NCBI GenBank assembly: GCA_028284705.1 | Contig: JANQRE010000021.1 | Span: 1 to 61,620, forward strand | Reading direction: 5' to 3' | Length of the DNA stretch: 61,620 nt | Source of the DNA: Paracoccaceae bacterium | GTDB taxonomy: Bacteria; Pseudomonadota; Alphaproteobacteria; Rhodobacterales; Rhodobacteraceae | Shown: piece after piece, positions 15,222 to 56,251 of the stretch | Position numbering within the stretch: the stretch's first letter is position 1 | Layout: every line of letters starts with the position of its first letter | Notes under the pieces: generated by a model | Told to the model about the DNA's origin: nothing | Seen by the model: only the letters and a program-made list of their open reading frames with translations | Databases searched by the model: none | Program-made: the position numbers and the translations under genes

Positions 15222-16043
15222 ATGTTCGAAGTCGAACAAAAAACGACGAATTTCCGGTCGGCTCTCGGGCTGGCAGACCTGATCTATCACAATACGGTTC
15301 GCCACGTGCGCAAGAGCCATCGCAACGCGATCATCGGGCTCGCGCTGAATATGTTCCAGACCGTCGTCTTCGTGGGAGCATTTTATATTATGTTCTCCGT
15401 GCTTGGCCTCAGGGGGTCGGCAATCCGCGGCGATTTCATTCTGTACTTGCTGTCGGGAATTTTCCTGTTTCTGACCCATACCAAGGCTGTCGGTGCGATC
15501 ATGGGATCGGAAGGTCCGACATCGGCGATGATGAAACACGCGCCAATGAACACTGCAATTGCGATTGCTTCGGCGGCGCTGTCCTCGCTGTATCTTCAGA
15601 CGTTATCTGCGGCCTTGATCCTGTTTGTCGTCCATGTGGCGTGGCATCCGATTGTCATGGACGACCCGATTGGGACGATTGCGATGTTTCTGCTGGCCTG
15701 GATTTCAGGTGTGGCCGTCGGAATGGTCTTTCTGGCACTGAAACCCTGGATACCGGATGTGGCGACGATCATGTCTGTGGTCTACAACCGCGCCAATATG
15801 ATCGCGTCAGGCAAGATGTTCGTTGCCAATGCAATGCCGAGCTATGTGCTGGCGTTCTTCGATTGGAACCCTCTGTTTCACTCCATCGACCAGGCGCGCG
15901 GATTTGCGTTCATCAATTACAATCCGCATTTCAGCTCGATCAGCTATCCCGTAACGGTCACAATCGTGCTCATGATGGTCGGATTGATGGGTGAGTTCTA
16001 CACCAGACGCCAAGCCTCCGTCAGTTGGAGTGCCGGTCGCTAA
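15222..16043 (+). CDS. ABC-2 type permease of capsule/polysaccharide export family
   Basis: A 273-residue inner-membrane protein of the KpsM/Wzm-like ABC-2 permease family. After an amphipathic cytoplasmic N-terminus of about 38 residues there are about six hydrophobic segments, the first from LNMFQTVVFVGAFYIMF. Such permeases export a finished polysaccharide across the inner membrane together with an ATPase (KpsT/Wzt). No partner ATPase lies next to it, which is unusual. Neighbouring genes supply sugars and glycosyltransferases, so it probably exports their product. The stop overlaps the convergent alkB gene by 4 nt. Confidence 0.82.
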   Translation: MFEVEQKTTNFRSALGLADLIYHNTVRHVRKSHRNAIIGLALNMFQTVVFVGAFYIMFSVLGLRGSAIRGDFILYLLSGIFLFLTHTKAVGAIMGSEGPTSAMMKHAPMNTAIAIASAALSSLYLQTLSAALILFVVHVAWHPIVMDDPIGTIAMFLLAWISGVAVGMVFLALKPWIPDVATIMSVVYNRANMIASGKMFVANAMPSYVLAFFDWNPLFHSIDQARGFAFINYNPHFSSISYPVTVTIVLMMVGLMGEFYTRRQASVSWSAGR

Positions 16044-28968: not shown

Positions 28969-30118
28969 GAACTGGCAGCGCGGCGGTTTCGGGCTTTATG
29001 TCCACTGGCCTTTTTGCGAAGCGAAATGCCCATACTGCGATTTCAATAGTCACGTTGTAGATCGGGTGGATCAGTCCGATTGGGCTGAAGCATTTGAACG
29101 CGAGTTGGAACGGGCTGCAGAGAGAACGCCCAACCGTGTTTTGACATCCGTGTTCTTTGGAGGTGGAACACCCAGTTTGATGCAGCCAGAGACTGTTGGT
29201 CGTATCCTAGAAAAAGCCGCAAATCTCTGGTCTTTCTCTAATGACATCGAAATCACGCTTGAGGCAAATCCGACCAGCGTCGAAGCCGCTCGGTTTGACG
29301 GTTATCGGCGCGTTGGTGTTAATCGCGTCTCGATTGGAGCTCAGGCTTTTAATAATGCTGATCTTAAGGCATTAGGTCGATTACATAGTGTCGAGGACCT
29401 ATGGAACGCGCTTGAAATTGCGCGCACGGCATTTGATCGCGTCAGCCTTGATTTGATCTATGCGCGTCAGCACCAATCTCTCAAAAACTGGGAAGATGAG
29501 CTGAAACAGTGTCTTTCCTTTGAACCTAAGCACCTGTCGCTTTATCAACTGACGATAGAGGATGGAACGGCGTTCGGGGCACGCCACAAAGCCGGAAAAC
29601 TGCCGGGCCTCCCGGCAGACGAGGTGGCGGCTGATATGTTTGAGCTGACGCAATCCATGACCGAAATTGCTGGCCTTCCGGCCTATGAAATCTCAAACCA
29701 TGCGCGTCCAGGCGAAGAAGCACGTCATAATCTGATCTATTGGCGCGGCGGGGATTGGGTTGGAATTGGCCCCGGTGCACATGGTCGCTTCGATGCTCAA
29801 ACAGCAAGATATGCGACGACCACCGCCTTGAGTCCCGCCAAATGGTTGGCGGACGCGAAGACCGACGCTACCGAGTACCAGGTGCTATCGCCTGAGGACG
29901 CCGCGTTAGAATACTTGTTGATGTCGTTGAGAATGGCGGAAGGGTGCGACCTGCAGCACCTTGGGGCTCTCGACCTAAATCTCCATCAATCCGTGATATC
30001 AAACGCCGCCAGATACGATCTTCCGGTGACATATGATCGGGATCGGCTTCAGGTGACGGCAAGCGGGCGCATCTTGCTAAACGAAATCCTGACTCAACTC
30101 GTACGAGAAAGCGCCTGA
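28958..30118 (+). CDS. hemW: Radical SAM family heme chaperone HemW
   Basis: HemW binds and probably delivers heme to apoproteins; it was formerly confused with HemN, the oxygen-independent coproporphyrinogen oxidase. It has 386 residues. The radical SAM cysteines are C20, C24 and C27 in PFCEAKCPYCDFN, and the protein lacks the longer N-terminus of true HemN. FFGGGTPSLM and LEANPTS are further HemW/HemN marks. The start is probably TTG at 28958, inside rdgB; no ATG fits. The 3' end overlaps the convergent parB gene by 25 nt. Confidence 0.9.
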   Translation: MAIENWQRGGFGLYVHWPFCEAKCPYCDFNSHVVDRVDQSDWAEAFERELERAAERTPNRVLTSVFFGGGTPSLMQPETVGRILEKAANLWSFSNDIEITLEANPTSVEAARFDGYRRVGVNRVSIGAQAFNNADLKALGRLHSVEDLWNALEIARTAFDRVSLDLIYARQHQSLKNWEDELKQCLSFEPKHLSLYQLTIEDGTAFGARHKAGKLPGLPADEVAADMFELTQSMTEIAGLPAYEISNHARPGEEARHNLIYWRGGDWVGIGPGAHGRFDAQTARYATTTALSPAKWLADAKTDATEYQVLSPEDAALEYLLMSLRMAEGCDLQHLGALDLNLHQSVISNAARYDLPVTYDRDRLQVTASGRILLNEILTQLVRESA

Positions 30119-30987
30119 CATAGCCAATCGAGCTGACTGAGCGATTTGTAGTTCACCGTGACAGTGCCGGCCTCACCACCAGGCTTGTGATCAATCGATA
30201 TTTTCATTCCCGTGGCCGCCGAAAGGTCCTGCTCGAGCGCGCGGGTATCGGCATCCTTTGCGACATGTTTTTTGGGACTTGATTTTTGCGTTTTGGAAGG
30301 TGTTGTTGCTGATTTTGCGAGCTTTTCCGTCTCTCTCACAGAGAGGCCCTCAGCAACAATCCTGCGGGCAAGTTCGGATGCGTTGGGCGCGACAACCAGT
30401 GCCCGTGCGTGTCCGGCGGACAATTGCTGTGTTCTCAAGAACTCCAGAACATCCTCCGGCAATGTCAGCAAACGCATAAGGTTCGCGATGTGACTGCGGC
30501 TCTTTCCCAGCGCTTTGGACAAGGCCTCCTGCGTGTGGCCAAAACGATCCTGCAGGCTTCTGTATCCCAGCGCTTCCTCAACAGGGTTTAGATCGGCGCG
30601 CTGGACATTCTCGATGATCGCAATCTCAAGCATCTCAGTGTCTGACAGATCCCGAATGACGACCGGAAGCTCGTGCAACTGCGCCTGTTGCGCTGCGCGC
30701 CAACGGCGTTCTCCGGCGACGATCTGATACCCCTGCACGGCATTGGGTTTCGGTCTGACAATGAGAGGCTGAATAATGCCCTTCTCTCTTATCGAATTGG
30801 CAAGGTCTTCAAGATCCCGCGGCTCGAACGATTTCCTTGGTTGATCCGGGTTGGGTTCGATTTGCTCCACTGGTACCAAAACCTGATCCGAGCGTGCTCC
30901 CGGCGACTTCTTTTGAGGAGCTTCAATATCCGCCATGAGAGCAGAGAGGCCGCGGCCTAATCCCTTTTTCTTATTATTATCAGTCAC
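30094..30987 (-). CDS. parB: Chromosome partitioning protein ParB
   Basis: CTPase DNA clamp that loads at parS and spreads to form the centromere complex. It has 297 residues: N-terminal KGLGRGLSAL motif (ParA-interacting), ParB/Srx domain with GERRWRAA (92-99, CTP binding), a helix-turn-helix region with SKALGKSRSHIANLMRLL, and a C-terminal dimerisation domain (about 235-297). parA overlaps its start by 8 nt. The two perfect parS sites 1.4 and 3.3 kb upstream are its expected targets. Confidence 0.97.
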   Translation of the reverse strand: MTDNNKKKGLGRGLSALMADIEAPQKKSPGARSDQVLVPVEQIEPNPDQPRKSFEPRDLEDLANSIREKGIIQPLIVRPKPNAVQGYQIVAGERRWRAAQQAQLHELPVVIRDLSDTEMLEIAIIENVQRADLNPVEEALGYRSLQDRFGHTQEALSKALGKSRSHIANLMRLLTLPEDVLEFLRTQQLSAGHARALVVAPNASELARRIVAEGLSVRETEKLAKSATTPSKTQKSSPKKHVAKDADTRALEQDLSAATGMKISIDHKPGGEAGTVTVNYKSLSQLDWLCQALSRTS

Positions 30988-31804
30988 TTAAGGCCTCCGC
31001 TTCCTGCCCGTTCTTTTCTAGGAACTCGACCGCAAGGCGTTTATATGCTCGTGCGCCAGATGAGTTCGGATCGTAGTTAATGACCGGCATACCAAAAGAT
31101 GGTGCCTCACTGAGTGTAACATTGCGGGGGATCATTGTCTGGAAAACCAGGCCCTTGAGGTTCTCGCGCGCGTCCATTTCGACGTGATGGCTGAGGTTGT
31201 TGCGCTTGTCGAACATCGTCAAAACCACGCCCTCCAATCGCAAATTCGGATTCGCGGCTTCGCGCACTTCACGAATTGTCAGCATCAGTTGCGACAGGCC
31301 CTCGAGCGCAAAGAACTCTGCTTGTAGCGGAACCAGAACCGAGTCCGACGCAACCATTGCGTTGATCGTCAGAAGGTTAAGCGATGGAGGGCAATCGATC
31401 AGAATAAAGTCCAATCCCAAGGCCTCAACATCCGAGGTTTTCAAGACGTCCCGGATGAGAAACGTGCGTCGACCCATATTGACGATCTCAAGATCGGCAG
31501 AACTGAGATCCGTTGTAGATGGCACGATATGAAGCCCCGGAACATCAGTCGGTATCAGAACATCCGAAAGCGGTTTCTGGTCGAGGACGAGGTCATATGT
31601 CGTCTTCTTTCGATCGGCGATATCGATAGCCAGGCCCGTTGACGCATTTCCCTGCGGATCGAGATCAATCAGGGCGACCTTGTAGCCCACTGATGCGAGC
31701 GCGGCGCCAAGATTAACTGCAGTCGTTGTCTTTCCAACGCCACCCTTTTGGTTGGCAACGGATATGATTCTGGGGGCCAATCTATGCGCTCTCTCTCGGT
31801 GCAA
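30980..31804 (-). CDS. parA: Chromosome partitioning ATPase ParA
   Basis: Walker-type ATPase that forms the gradient moving ParB-parS complexes. It has 274 residues: a deviant Walker A motif KGGVGKTT (20-27), the catalytic aspartate in LIDLDPQGNAS, and DFILIDCPPSLNLLT. The start is TTG at 31804, overlapping the rsmG stop by 23 nt; no ATG is available that retains the full N-terminal strand. It is part of mnmE-mnmG-rsmG-parA-parB, the usual origin-proximal order. Confidence 0.95.
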   Translation of the reverse strand: MHRERAHRLAPRIISVANQKGGVGKTTTAVNLGAALASVGYKVALIDLDPQGNASTGLAIDIADRKKTTYDLVLDQKPLSDVLIPTDVPGLHIVPSTTDLSSADLEIVNMGRRTFLIRDVLKTSDVEALGLDFILIDCPPSLNLLTINAMVASDSVLVPLQAEFFALEGLSQLMLTIREVREAANPNLRLEGVVLTMFDKRNNLSHHVEMDARENLKGLVFQTMIPRNVTLSEAPSFGMPVINYDPNSSGARAYKRLAVEFLEKNGQEAEALSD

Positions 31805-32432
31805 CAGGGCTGGGTATCACAATAACGGATGAATCCATGTGACTGATGCTTGGTTGTTTTTCGTAAGTAAACTGCCATGATTCAAGCGCCGAGTTTATCT
31901 CATCGTCAGATTTCTCACCTTTAAGGAAAATAAAGTGACCGCCTGGTCGGAGATGCCTGTGACCCAGTGCAATGAGTTTTGTCACTGACGCGAGGGCTCT
32001 GGATGTAATGGCATCGGCGTTCACCGGCTCAATGGTCTCGATCCGGGCGCCCTGAACGCCGACAGCGAGATTCAGATTTCTGGCGACATGAGACAGGAAT
32101 GCCGCTTTGCGCTTGTCGGCATCAACCAATTCGAACAGACGCATTGACCCGTGATCTCCATCAAGGATCGCCAGGACAAGCCCCGGCAAACCTCCGCCGG
32201 ACCCAATATCGGCGACAACCTTATCTTTGGCGCTCAAAAGTGGGAATAACTGCGCGGAATCAAGGATATGCCTATTCCAAAACTCTGGAAGGGTCTTTGC
32301 TGAAACAAGGTTTATTTTAGTTGTCCAACGCCTGAACTCTTGGGCATACCAGCTCAGACGGTCAATTGTTTCACGTGAAACATTTTCTCTCTCGAAGAAC
32401 TCGGCGCATTCCTTCGGGATGGACTCATGCAC
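31782..32432 (-). CDS. rsmG: 16S rRNA (guanine(527)-N7)-methyltransferase RsmG
   Basis: Methylates G527 of 16S rRNA; loss gives low-level streptomycin resistance in other bacteria. It has 216 residues of the SAM-dependent Rossmann fold with [18 protein letters not shown] as the cofactor site. The residues NVSRET (17-22) are encoded by a parS palindrome, so DNA segregation constrains this part of the protein. It overlaps mnmG by 8 nt upstream and parA downstream. Confidence 0.95.
32367..32382. other. parS site (centromere), copy 1
   Basis: The 16-bp perfect palindrome TGTTTCACGTGAAACA, identical to the consensus chromosomal parS site bound by ParB. It lies inside rsmG, where it encodes part of NVSRET. 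ParB is encoded 1.4 kb away. Confidence 0.95.
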
Positions 32433-34299
32433 GGCGGCGCGACGCCTTAAAGACCTGCGCGAGAATGAGCGTTAGGGCAGCAGGTGTCATTCCATCGATG
32501 CGCGAGGCGTGTCCGATGGTTTTTGGGCGGATGCGGCGCAGCTTTTCTTTCAGCTCGGAAGAGAGACCGGCGAGGTCATCAAGCACAATATCTGTCGGTA
32601 TCTCGATGTTTTCGTCTCTCTTCAGGGCTTCTATGTCTCGAGATTGCCGTTGCGTGTAGTTTTCGTACAGCGCATCACGTGCGACCTGCTCCACTGCATT
32701 CGCATCAAGTTCCTTGAGTTCTGGCCAAACGATTTGCAAATCTGCAAGATTAACCGACGGCAGCGCCAGGAGTTCTTTTGCCGTGCGTTTGCGACCATCT
32801 TTGTTCACATTGATGCCCTGGTTTTCGGCTTCATTTGGTGACATCTCGCAGGCAGAGAGCAGGTTACGCGCTCGGTCGATCTGGGCCACTTTCTCTGCAA
32901 AACGGTCTGCGCGCGCAGTTGAAACAATGCCCCATTCGATCCCGCGGGGCGTCAGGCGTTGATCTGCGTTATCGGACCGCAATTGTAGGCGAAACTCGGC
33001 CCGAGACGTGAACATCCGGTACGGTTCCATGACGCCACGCGTCACCAGATCATCGATCATCACGCCGATATAAGCTTCCGATCTCAGAAACTTGATAGGC
33101 TCGTCTTGCGTTGCAGCTCGCGACGCGTTCAGGCCGGCGACGATACCCTGCGCCGCCGCTTCTTCATATCCCGTTGTGCCGTTGATCTGTCCAGCCAAAT
33201 ACAGCCCATCCACATCCTTGACGTTCAACCCGTGGTCGAGCGCACGCGGATCGACGTAATCATATTCAACGGCATAACCTGGCTGCTCAATTTTCGCCGA
33301 CTCGAGGCCTCGAATACTTGTGACGTAGGCCTCCTGCACGTCGATCGGCAACGAGGTTGAGATGCCGTTCGGGTAAACCGTTCTCGTATTGAGGCCCTCG
33401 GGCTCCAAGAAGACCTGATGTGAAGACTTGTCAGCAAATCGGACGATTTTGTCTTCGATGCTCGGGCAGTAGCGTGGTCCCACACCATCAATGTGGCCGC
33501 CATACATCGCTGATTTTTCGAGGTTTTCTCGAATGATCTCATGCGTGCGTGCGTTTGTATGCGTGATACCGCATGACACCTGATCCGCCTGTACGCGATC
33601 AGACATAAAGGAAAACAATGTGGGCTCTTCGTCACCGGGCTGATGCTCAAGGATATCCCAGTTTATCGTCCCGCCGTCCAGCCGTGGCGGTGTACCCGTC
33701 TTCAAACGCCCCAGCGGTAGCCCGAAATCATCAAATCGCGCAGCAAGCCGCTCAGCCCGACGGTCGCCCATCCGCCCACCGGCAATGGCTTTGTCGCCGA
33801 TAAACATCGTGCCGCGAAGAAATGTGCCAGTCGTGACCACCACCGCTTTACTGCGTATCTCTGAGCCATCGCCAAGTACGACGCCATGCACGGAGGCATT
33901 CTCCATCACAAGATCGGTGACTTCGCCCTCGATAATCGACAACCCTGGAGCGCCCGTCAGAACCGATTGCACGAATTCGCGATATCGCCCCCGATCGCTT
34001 TGAGCCCTGGGGCCCTGGACCGCGGGGCCTTTACGTCGGTTGAGAAGTCGAAACTGTATGGCCGCATAATCGGCAGCCCGGCCCATAAGCCCGTCCATAG
34101 CGTCAATTTCACGAACGAGATGACCCTTCCCAAGGCCTCCAATCGCCGGATTACAGGACATCACGCCGATAGAAGCCTTGGAAAACGTGATCAAAGCCGT
34201 CTTCGCACCCGAGCGCGCGGAAACATAGGCGGCCTCCGCGCCGGCGTGGCCACCTCCTACAACAACGACATCGAAATCCGAATGTTTCACGTGAAACAT
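32425..34299 (-). CDS. mnmG: tRNA uridine-5-carboxymethylaminomethyl modification enzyme MnmG
   Basis: With MnmE it installs the cmnm5 group on the wobble U34 of several tRNAs, using FAD and methylene-tetrahydrofolate. It has 624 residues: the FAD-binding motif [12 protein letters not shown] (14-25), [20 protein letters not shown], and a helical C-terminal domain. The N-terminus MFHVKH is encoded by a parS palindrome that includes the start codon. It follows mnmE by 3 nt. Confidence 0.97.
34283..34298. other. parS site (centromere), copy 2
   Basis: A second exact TGTTTCACGTGAAACA palindrome, 1,916 bp from the first. It overlaps the mnmG initiation region (the ATG ends at 34299) and encodes MFHVKH. 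The sequence also lies in the mnmE-mnmG junction, so ParB binding and mnmG translation share the same bases. Confidence 0.95.
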
Positions 34300-37008: not shown

Positions 37009-37461
37009 TCAGAATGGCCGCGCGATAACAGAGACGACAATCACGATCACCATCACGGTCGGCACTTCATTCATCAGTCGATAGCGTTTACCCGAAACTG
37101 CGTTGGTGCCAGAGACAAAATCTTTTCGTCGTAAGCCGAGCCAATGATGAAACCAGGTCAGCACCAGGACGGCGAGTGCCTTCGTCCAAGGCCAGATCTC
37201 TGACCAATCGACAATCCCTGGCGTGAAAACAAGGGCCAAACCAAACACCCACACAGCGATCATCGCTGGGTTCATAATCAAACGCAGCAATTTACGCTCC
37301 ATCATTTGAAACAGCTGATCCGTTTCAGAACCGGTTGCGACGCGTTCGGTATGGTGAACAAACAGCCTTGGCAGATAGAAAAGTCCTGCCATCCATGCAA
37401 TCACAGAAATAACATGCAGGCTCTTAGTCCAAGGATAAGCCAGAGCGAGAAAGTCGGTCAT
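37009..37461 (-). CDS. hemJ: Protoporphyrinogen IX oxidase HemJ
   Basis: Converts protoporphyrinogen IX to protoporphyrin IX in the inner membrane; HemJ replaces HemG/HemY in many alphaproteobacteria. It has 150 residues and about four membrane helices (WTKSLHVISVIAWMAGLFYLPRL split across helix 1; VWVFGLALVF; ALAVLVLTWFHHWL; VMVIVIVVSVIA). The histidine in SLHVISVIAWM and the arginine in FYLPRLFVHH are conserved. The start is ATG at 37461 with an AGGGG site. In related genomes hemE often lies nearby, but it is not here. Confidence 0.88.
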   Translation of the reverse strand: MTDFLALAYPWTKSLHVISVIAWMAGLFYLPRLFVHHTERVATGSETDQLFQMMERKLLRLIMNPAMIAVWVFGLALVFTPGIVDWSEIWPWTKALAVLVLTWFHHWLGLRRKDFVSGTNAVSGKRYRLMNEVPTVMVIVIVVSVIARPF

Positions 37462-37852
37462 AAGAACCCCTCCGGCTCTTCCCATAAATTAAAATAGAAA
37501 AGAAAGAAAAGATGATGAATGATGTTGGGCACTGGATAGTGTGGATCAAATTCCCATGCACAGAGTTATCCATGGGGATATAGTCCAGCGCTAAGTATCC
37601 TCAGCCCCTAAAATATATATTATCATCAATATCTTAAATGAAAAATGGCCGAGATTTTCCGGGGATTATTCTGTGAACAAGATCGACAAAGTTTGGGTCG
37701 AGCTACGATAAACGAAGGGTTTTCCGCAGGGGAGAACTTTAGGACTGGAATTGCGCGAACTCGAACAGTATTTACTGGCAGTCCATCCGGAACATGATAC
37801 TCCCACTCTATGCGCTAACGCCCCCCGACTTCTCCACAGAGTTATCACCCCC
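37462..37852. other. Candidate chromosomal replication origin (oriC)
   Basis: The only gene-free stretch over 300 bp (391 bp). Genes on each side read away from it. DnaA-box-like sites (consensus TTATNCACA): TGTGGATCA at 37540-37548 (8 of 9 on the minus strand), CCATGCACA at 37554-37562 and TTATCCATG at 37566-37574, TGTGAACAA at 37672-37680 (8 of 9, minus strand), TTCTCCACA at 37830-37838 (8 of 9) and TTATCACCC at 37842-37850. A 12-bp repeat CACAGAGTTATC occurs at 37559-37570 and 37835-37846. The AT-rich tract 37609-37647 could be the unwinding element, with an IHF-like match at 37624-37636. The flanking order is the one known next to the Caulobacter origin. Confidence 0.75.
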
Positions 37853-38449
37853 ATGATTTCCCTAATCCTCGCCAGCGGCTCCTCATCCCGCGCCAAGATG
37901 TTGCAGCAGGCAGGGGTCCCCTTTCAGCAAATTGTCCCAAAAATCGACGAGTCTAATCTCAAACAAGCTTTGCTGCAGGACGGGGCATCACATCGCGATA
38001 TCGCAGACACTCTAGCTGAGTACAAAGCACGTAAGATCTCACACAAACATCCTGAGGCGCTGGTGCTGGGAAGTGACCAGGTTTTGGAATTCAACGGCCA
38101 ACTCATATCGAAATCCGAAACGCATGAAGAGCTGTTGGAGTGCCTCAGATCGATGCGCGGAAAAACTCACACGCTGATCTCTGCCGCCGTTATCTTTGAA
38201 GACCTGAAACCGGTTTGGCGCTCCGTCAAGACAGTCCGGATGACAATGCGCGCCCCAAGCGAAGCTTACCTGAAAGACTACATTGATCGGAACTGGGATC
38301 AGATCAAATGGTGCGTCGGTGGATACCAGTTGGAGGGCGAAGGTGCGCGCCTTTTTGCGGATGTTCGGGGTGACTATTTTACAGTGCTTGGAATGCCGCT
38401 ATTAGATGTTCTGTCCTACCTGACCCAAAGAGGCGCCATCTCGGGATGA
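37853..38449 (+). CDS. maf: Maf-like nucleotide pyrophosphatase
   Basis: Family members hydrolyse dTTP, UTP or modified pyrimidine or 7-methyl-GTP nucleotides (house-cleaning). It has 198 residues with SLILASGSSSRAKML at the N-terminus, VLGSDQVLEF containing the conserved aspartate, and MRGKTHTLISA. The open frame extends to 37751, but the ATG at 37853 is the family start. It is the first gene to the right of the candidate origin; aroE overlaps its end by 4 nt. The exact substrate class (YhdE or YceF type) is not determined. Confidence 0.92.
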   Translation: MISLILASGSSSRAKMLQQAGVPFQQIVPKIDESNLKQALLQDGASHRDIADTLAEYKARKISHKHPEALVLGSDQVLEFNGQLISKSETHEELLECLRSMRGKTHTLISAAVIFEDLKPVWRSVKTVRMTMRAPSEAYLKDYIDRNWDQIKWCVGGYQLEGEGARLFADVRGDYFTVLGMPLLDVLSYLTQRGAISG

Positions 38450-55616: not shown

Positions 55617-55988
55617 ATGCCCAAAGTGACCGGAATAGGCGGACTGTTCTTTCGTGCGAAGGATACGGACGCGCTTGTGAAGTGGTATCATACCCATCTT
55701 GGCATCGATCCGACCCCTCAGGGTGCGGACGAAATGCCGTGGATGCAGGAGGCGGGCCCAACCGTTTTTGCGCCATTTCAGGAAGACACAGAGTATTTCG
55801 GACCCAAAACGAACCAGTTCATGGTGAATTTCCGGGTCGATGACTTGGCGGGGATGGTCGCACAGCTTGAAAAGGCTGGCATCGAGATCGTGCATACCGA
55901 AGAGATGGAAGGCATCGGCAAATTCGCCCACCTCTTTGATCCCGAAGGCAATAAGATCGAGCTTTGGGAACCGGCTCCACCGCCATAA
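55617..55988 (+). CDS. VOC superfamily (glyoxalase/bleomycin-resistance fold) protein
   Basis: A 123-residue VOC protein: [24 protein letters not shown] at the start and the C-terminal [14 protein letters not shown] strand are typical; the metal ligands His/Glu of such folds are plausibly H25 and E116-like positions. Family members range from glyoxalases to drug-binding proteins, so no reaction is claimed. A strong site AAAAGGAGG precedes the ATG at 55617. It is divergent from rimP. Confidence 0.85.
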
Positions 55989-56068
55989 TATTAGCTCGTT
56001 TCACCACATTCCTGCCCAACTTCGCCATTAACCATGCCGCCATGAACCTAGTTGGGAAGGGATAAAGG

Positions 56069-56197
56069 ATGACTCTTGGTTTCATTTTAGGCGTCGGCGG
56101 TGCCGGCTTTTTGTGCGGTGTCGCGGTGATGTATCTCGTGATGATGCGCACGATGAAAAAGCGCATGGCAGAGGCGGGAACGCCTTACGCAGCCTAA
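56069..56197 (+). CDS. Small single-pass membrane protein (42 residues)
   Basis: A short frame reading MTLGFILGVGGAGFLCGVAV and then MYLVMMRTMKKRMAEAGTPYAA: one hydrophobic Gly-rich helix (about residues 3-26) followed by a basic segment, which places the C-terminus in the cytoplasm. A GGAAGGG site lies 8 nt before the ATG, and the coding frame has plausible codon use. No family is recognised. A strong terminator begins 3 nt after its stop, which supports a real transcription unit. Confidence 0.65.
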   Translation: MTLGFILGVGGAGFLCGVAVMYLVMMRTMKKRMAEAGTPYAA

Positions 56198-56200
56198 ACA

Positions 56201-56229
56201 AAAAGCCCCGCCAAACCGGCGGGGCTTTT
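56201..56229. terminator. Bidirectional Rho-independent terminator
   Basis: A perfect 12-bp stem AAAAGCCCCGCC (56201-56212)/GGCGGGGCTTTT (56218-56229) with loop AAACC. It has a T-run on both strands, so it can end the small membrane protein transcript and the ABC-transporter operon arriving from the right. Confidence 0.9.
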
Positions 56230-56251
56230 CATTTCAATCAAGCAATTCGAC

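Follow-up and report, generated by a model that had tools for sequence, protein, structure and literature searches.

The bacterium examined here very probably begins to replicate its chromosome in the short stretch between hemJ and maf, which we propose as its putative oriC because of where that gap lies, how DnaA boxes cluster within it, how well it has been kept among relatives, the switch in GC skew found at the same place in a congener, and the parS sites close by. The DNA analysed, called the window throughout, is 61,620 nucleotides long and makes up the whole of contig C46 in a draft genome of 4.04 Mb that is divided among 50 contigs. Sequence comparison places that genome in the Litoreibacter group of the Rhodobacterales, or in the GTDB equivalent of Litoreibacter; the gap cores of five genomes of the same genus are the same as those of five Litoreibacter records (L032-L035 and L065). 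We regard the hemJ–maf gap as an ordinary conserved origin, with no new type of element in it, and the general view of origins is unchanged. What the likely origin would do is fix the ori–ter axis of a draft genome, and its layout, common to many Rhodobacterales, could help in designing assays for origins in these marine bacteria.

Where does the gap begin and end? The likely start codon of hemJ is the CAT at 37459-37461 on the minus strand, kept in the family alignment, and maf starts with the ATG at 37853, so the gap runs from 37462 to 37852 (391 bp), in agreement with the limits given in the preliminary description. The features on which the argument draws are these:

30094-30987, minus strand: parB (TIGR00180 cut-off exceeded)
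30980-31804, minus strand: a gene that we take to be parA (best NCBIfam matches under their cut-offs)
32367-32382, plus strand: parS, a perfect 16-mer
34283-34298, plus strand: parS, a perfect 16-mer
37009-37461, minus strand: hemJ, left flank (TIGR00701 above cut-off; start set by conservation)
37462-37852, no strand: candidate oriC, the hemJ–maf gap (skew, conservation, box clustering)
37484-37526, no strand: A-rich tract with AAAGATGATG (37508-37517), family-conserved candidate DNA-unwinding element (alignment of 77 gaps)
37531-37539, minus strand: weak box CTATCCAGT, tandem partner of the G-box, three mismatches to TTATCCACA; a GTGGATA-type form in congeners
37540-37548, minus strand: DnaA box TGATCCACA, the same sequence as the Caulobacter G-box (PMC4285127, available part)
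37554-37574, plus strand: weak pair CCATGCACA-GAG-TTATCCATG, by sequence
37573-37578, minus strand: TCCCCA, a sequence match to the Caulobacter W-box (PMC4285127, available part)
37609-37647, no strand: second AT-rich tract, earlier proposed as the unwinding element; on the least stable side of the gap in the window
37624-37636, plus strand: IHF-like CATCAATATCTTA, one mismatch
37672-37680, minus strand: DnaA box TTGTTCACA, in a part of the gap for which the family consensus shows CTGTGGATAA-like boxes
37830-37850, plus strand: GAG-joined pair TTCTCCACA-GAG-TTATCACCC, its second box degenerate in the window; relatives have TTATCCACATG there
37853-38449, plus strand: maf-like gene, right flank (NCBIfam matches below cut-offs)

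To the left of the gap, parB, parA, rsmG, mnmG, mnmE, rho and hemJ follow one another on the minus strand, and to the right maf, aroE, coaE and dnaQ lie on the plus strand, followed by a reversed secB (the names rsmG and secB, like parA, are ones we presume from the translations). The genes do therefore read outward from parB to hemJ and from maf to dnaQ, as had been claimed, but the next two genes rightward point back. The gap had also been called the sole gene-free stretch above 300 bp. This is nearly true: a crude call of reading frames (at least 80 amino acids) leaves 55932-56251 as well, but the claim is near enough because that second stretch holds, by eye, a 43-codon reading frame (56069-56197) and a terminator-like hairpin. 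At the place that matches it, the congener G019 has about 4 kb of extra DNA. Elsewhere in the window lie an Rfam match to Cis2_sRNA (RF02645, Ruegeria cis2 sRNA; 15785-15938, minus strand, 71.4 bits) and, at the extreme contig edge, a tRNA-Leu (CAG) at 13-99 on the plus strand.

The 61-kb window is indecisive by its own skew, its cumulative curve dropping again after about 44 kb, and since the genome is a 50-contig draft we took the skew from G019, whose assembly has three contigs. The two genomes are colinear here: 50 of 58 crude reading frames match in the same order and on the same strand over the 60 kb compared, and five of the eight unmatched ones are at the left edge, at or past the end of the compared G019 stretch. 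Forty stretches of 20 kb were sampled from the 3.85-Mb contig of G019, treated as circular, three of them placed around the gap, and a circular, two-breakpoint fit was made blind to the position of the gap, with no permutation control. In the two best fits, which are nearly equal, the skew turns from minus to plus at 2.74-2.81 Mb and at 2.72-2.74 Mb respectively, no more than about 90 kb from the gap (about 2.7225-2.7229 Mb). The second switch falls at 0.71-0.81 Mb, and the point opposite the gap is at 0.798 Mb. The skew check that the preliminary description had asked for thus finds the gap at the skew minimum of G019 at a sampling resolution of 20-90 kb. Another genome, G007, is only weakly consistent, with a switch between the samples at 2.41 and 2.48 Mb and the gap at 2.488 Mb; its 2.60-Mb stretch is slightly negative again.

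An origin linked to dnaA was considered and rejected: some 0.5 Mb separate dnaA (at 3.22 Mb) from the gap in G019, and some 0.3 Mb in G007, and in none of five genomes do two boxes fall within 400 b of each other in the 3.0-4.4 kb neighbourhoods of dnaA. The segregation genes are neighbours of the gap. Two perfect parS sites, at 32367 and 34283, stand 3-5 kb from the gap, near parAB, and no other perfect one was found in the genome, and G019 has two parS near its own gap at almost identical spacing.

Within the gap, the three DnaA boxes matching eight of nine positions that had been reported are indeed there: measured against TTATNCACA, the one-mismatch sites are TGATCCACA (37540, minus), TTGTTCACA (37672, minus) and TTCTCCACA (37830, plus), compared with a mean of 0.35 in 2000 dinucleotide shuffles of 37486-37852 (P=0.0095). 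With up to two mismatches allowed, nine sites are found and the same shuffles average 3.7 (P=0.008), so that the boxes form a cluster above chance; the two GAG-joined pairs, at 37554-37574 and 37830-37850, were also recovered. One-mismatch boxes are not enriched over the window as a whole (21, with 20.2 expected), and it is their clustering alone that stands out. In the 860 kb of the 4.04-Mb genome that were examined, window included, there are 198 one-mismatch sites, and the gap is the only locus with three of them per 300 b. At up to two mismatches it ranks first, with nine, of 16,913 windows of 367 bp, but several others reach eight, and the lead of the gap over the rest of its genome is, by that measure, thin. 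Across 800 kb sampled from G019, the top cluster is again the hemJ–maf gap, with six boxes per 400 b and three in the next one elsewhere.

Might the cluster be a site near the origin that titrates DnaA, as datA does, rather than the origin itself? The window genome, whose cluster holds no perfect box, would suit such a role; the AT-rich tracts and the skew switch, however, coincide at the gap, and no better box cluster lies nearby, and we find the suggestion hardly credible.

The conservation of the putative origin was followed through maf. Hits to maf gave 110 loci (L002-L111, L002 being the window) in a set that leans to close relatives, since the best 80 of 123 relatives were kept. Twenty-eight loci were dropped: ten distant maf paralogs (L022-L031), three with no hemJ match (L087, L088 and L093) and fifteen (L094, L095, L097 and L100-L111) in which maf had less than 45% identity, hemJ was lacking or the gap exceeded 1500 b. 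In L087, L088 and L093, maf and rho are present with no hemJ match between them, so either the left neighbour differs there or hemJ has diverged. The remaining 82 hemJ–maf gaps, less five duplicates, make 77 distinct ones, the window among them. Conservation of the boxes in relatives was borne out, boxes exceeding shuffles at P<=0.05 in 71 of the 77 gaps (200 shuffles each) and not doing so in six (L021, L045, L081, L084, L085 and L090). The mean number of one-mismatch boxes per gap is 4.5 (0.43 when shuffled) and of perfect boxes 1.2; the boxes of the window are all imperfect, three with one mismatch and none perfect. The GTGGAT core is present in 74 of the 77 gaps, the G-box TGATCCACA in 12 (0.4 expected), and the W-box motif TCCCCA occurs 65 times, with 27.4 expected.

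Read from hemJ to maf, the pieces that have been kept are an A-rich tract with GATGATG at its end (58 of 77 gaps), GTGGAT, a variable AT-rich stretch, an CTGTGGATAA-like box and finally TTATCCACATG, of which the window retains the A-rich tract and the GTGGAT core, its last box on the maf side being degenerate. The 12-bp repeat CACAGAGTTATC noted earlier is present in the gap but is not conserved, the 12-mer occurring in one of the 77 gaps, the window's own. The pattern GATGATGN{12,30}GKGGATYA was tried as a unique marker of the origin and rejected: at least 67 of 80 family genomes match it, and a reversed-pattern control matched once overall, but it does not prove uniqueness because it has three places in the window's own genome (one of them the gap), and many matches are coding-like.

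In 42 of the 77 gaps, TTATCCACATG stands at one fixed position with its ATG in the maf frame. This perfect box overlapping the putative maf start codon, together with a skew resolution of 20-90 kb, is what might commend another reading, in which the gap is a mere divergent promoter for hemJ and maf, its DnaA boxes regulate transcription, and the origin is some tens of kb off. Such an origin would have to be sought in DNA where we find no second site with three or more one-mismatch boxes per 400 b, either in the window or in 60 kb of G019, and the relatives' gaps have held a stable length as well as their A-rich tract; we judge the promoter reading highly improbable. A more adventurous thought is that, in Rhodobacterales, oriC has its maf-side box fused with the start codon of maf, so that assembly of the orisome would block maf expression and tie firing to Maf. 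We think this rather unlikely to be right, and in the window genome the maf-side box has been lost from the maf start.

For the putative origin itself, the gap offers two candidate tracts for unwinding. The 39-bp tract at 37609-37647, singled out in the preliminary description, is real: it is 87% A+T, a value matched by two of 61,582 windows of 39 bp (the tract and its neighbour). It is also the least stable in the window, but conservation in the family favours the A-rich tract on the hemJ side. When stability is computed from nearest neighbours, the 40-mer that would melt most easily falls towards hemJ in 50 of the 77 gaps and on the opposite side in 27, the window among these. The unwinding element is thus probably the A-rich tract beside the G-box, with 37609-37647 as a possible unwinding tract in the window genome.

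The IHF-like site reported within 37609-37647 is likewise present, with one mismatch to what we take to be the IHF consensus, but is insignificant alone (0.54 expected, P=0.40). In 35 of the family's 77 gaps, TCARN4TTR lies 60-125 b from where the G-box starts (a raw count, with no control for placing), and TCAAN4TTR occurs 37 times, with 18.0 expected.

How might such an origin fire? DnaA-ATP would bind at 37540, on the G-box, as well as on the weak box in tandem with it, and would spread along the weaker boxes of the gap, the DNA perhaps bending at the IHF-like site. An AT-rich tract would then open, probably the A-rich one by hemJ (with 37609-37647 possible in the window genome), DnaB would be loaded, and forks would depart both ways, after which ParB, presumably bound at the two parS 3-5 kb off, would segregate the new origins.

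That maf keeps company with origins is already known, because Ori-Finder counts it, with hemE and gidA, among its indicator genes (PMC3794950, in the part available). Origins of Rhodobacteraceae have been predicted with Ori-Finder in 101 closed genomes (PMC6699656), and they and our gap are alike, so far as the accessible portion of that paper goes, in having DnaA boxes, a local GC minimum, a minimum of GC disparity and parAB nearby; that portion names no flanking genes. A literature search, with most subscription journals outside its scope, recognised no description of a hemJ–maf origin in Rhodobacterales.

The Caulobacter origin lies between heme genes and maf. In a Brevundimonas locus (L107) the order is hemJ, hemH, hemE, gap, kinase regulator and maf (hemH, hemE and the pyruvate kinase regulator being names we presume from the translations), with 3.5 kb between hemJ and maf and a gap of about 300-480 b, depending on the start codon, from hemE to the kinase regulator. 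By this gene order, the Rhodobacterales gap is in a place comparable to that of the gap in a relative of Caulobacter, although hemJ and maf are separated by no more than 391 bp in the window. The Cori of Caulobacter crescentus has the G-box TGATCCACA and the W-box TCCCCA (PMC4285127, in its available part), and the window gap carries both. Unlike Cori, it has no CtrA site TTAAN7TTAA, exact or with one mismatch, and no GANTC. Across the 77 gaps, GANTC is not enriched (116, with 123.9 expected), and CtrA-like sites number four exact (1.3 expected) and, spread over 36 gaps, 45 with up to one mismatch (31.3 expected), slightly above expectation, so that some relatives may have CtrA sites.

In Escherichia coli, oriC is ordered as unwinding element, box, IHF site and further boxes, and the window gap may follow the same order, but with weak box matches and in a different gene context. 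A likeness in layout may also be drawn with the basal unwinding system, as the available part of PMC8287927 presents it: in the window, the boxes in tandem give way to a short spacer rich in G+C (37527-37530), beyond which come triplets and the A-rich tract. Judged by eye, these triplets fit the DnaA-trio pattern (trios within 16 bp of a box) only loosely.
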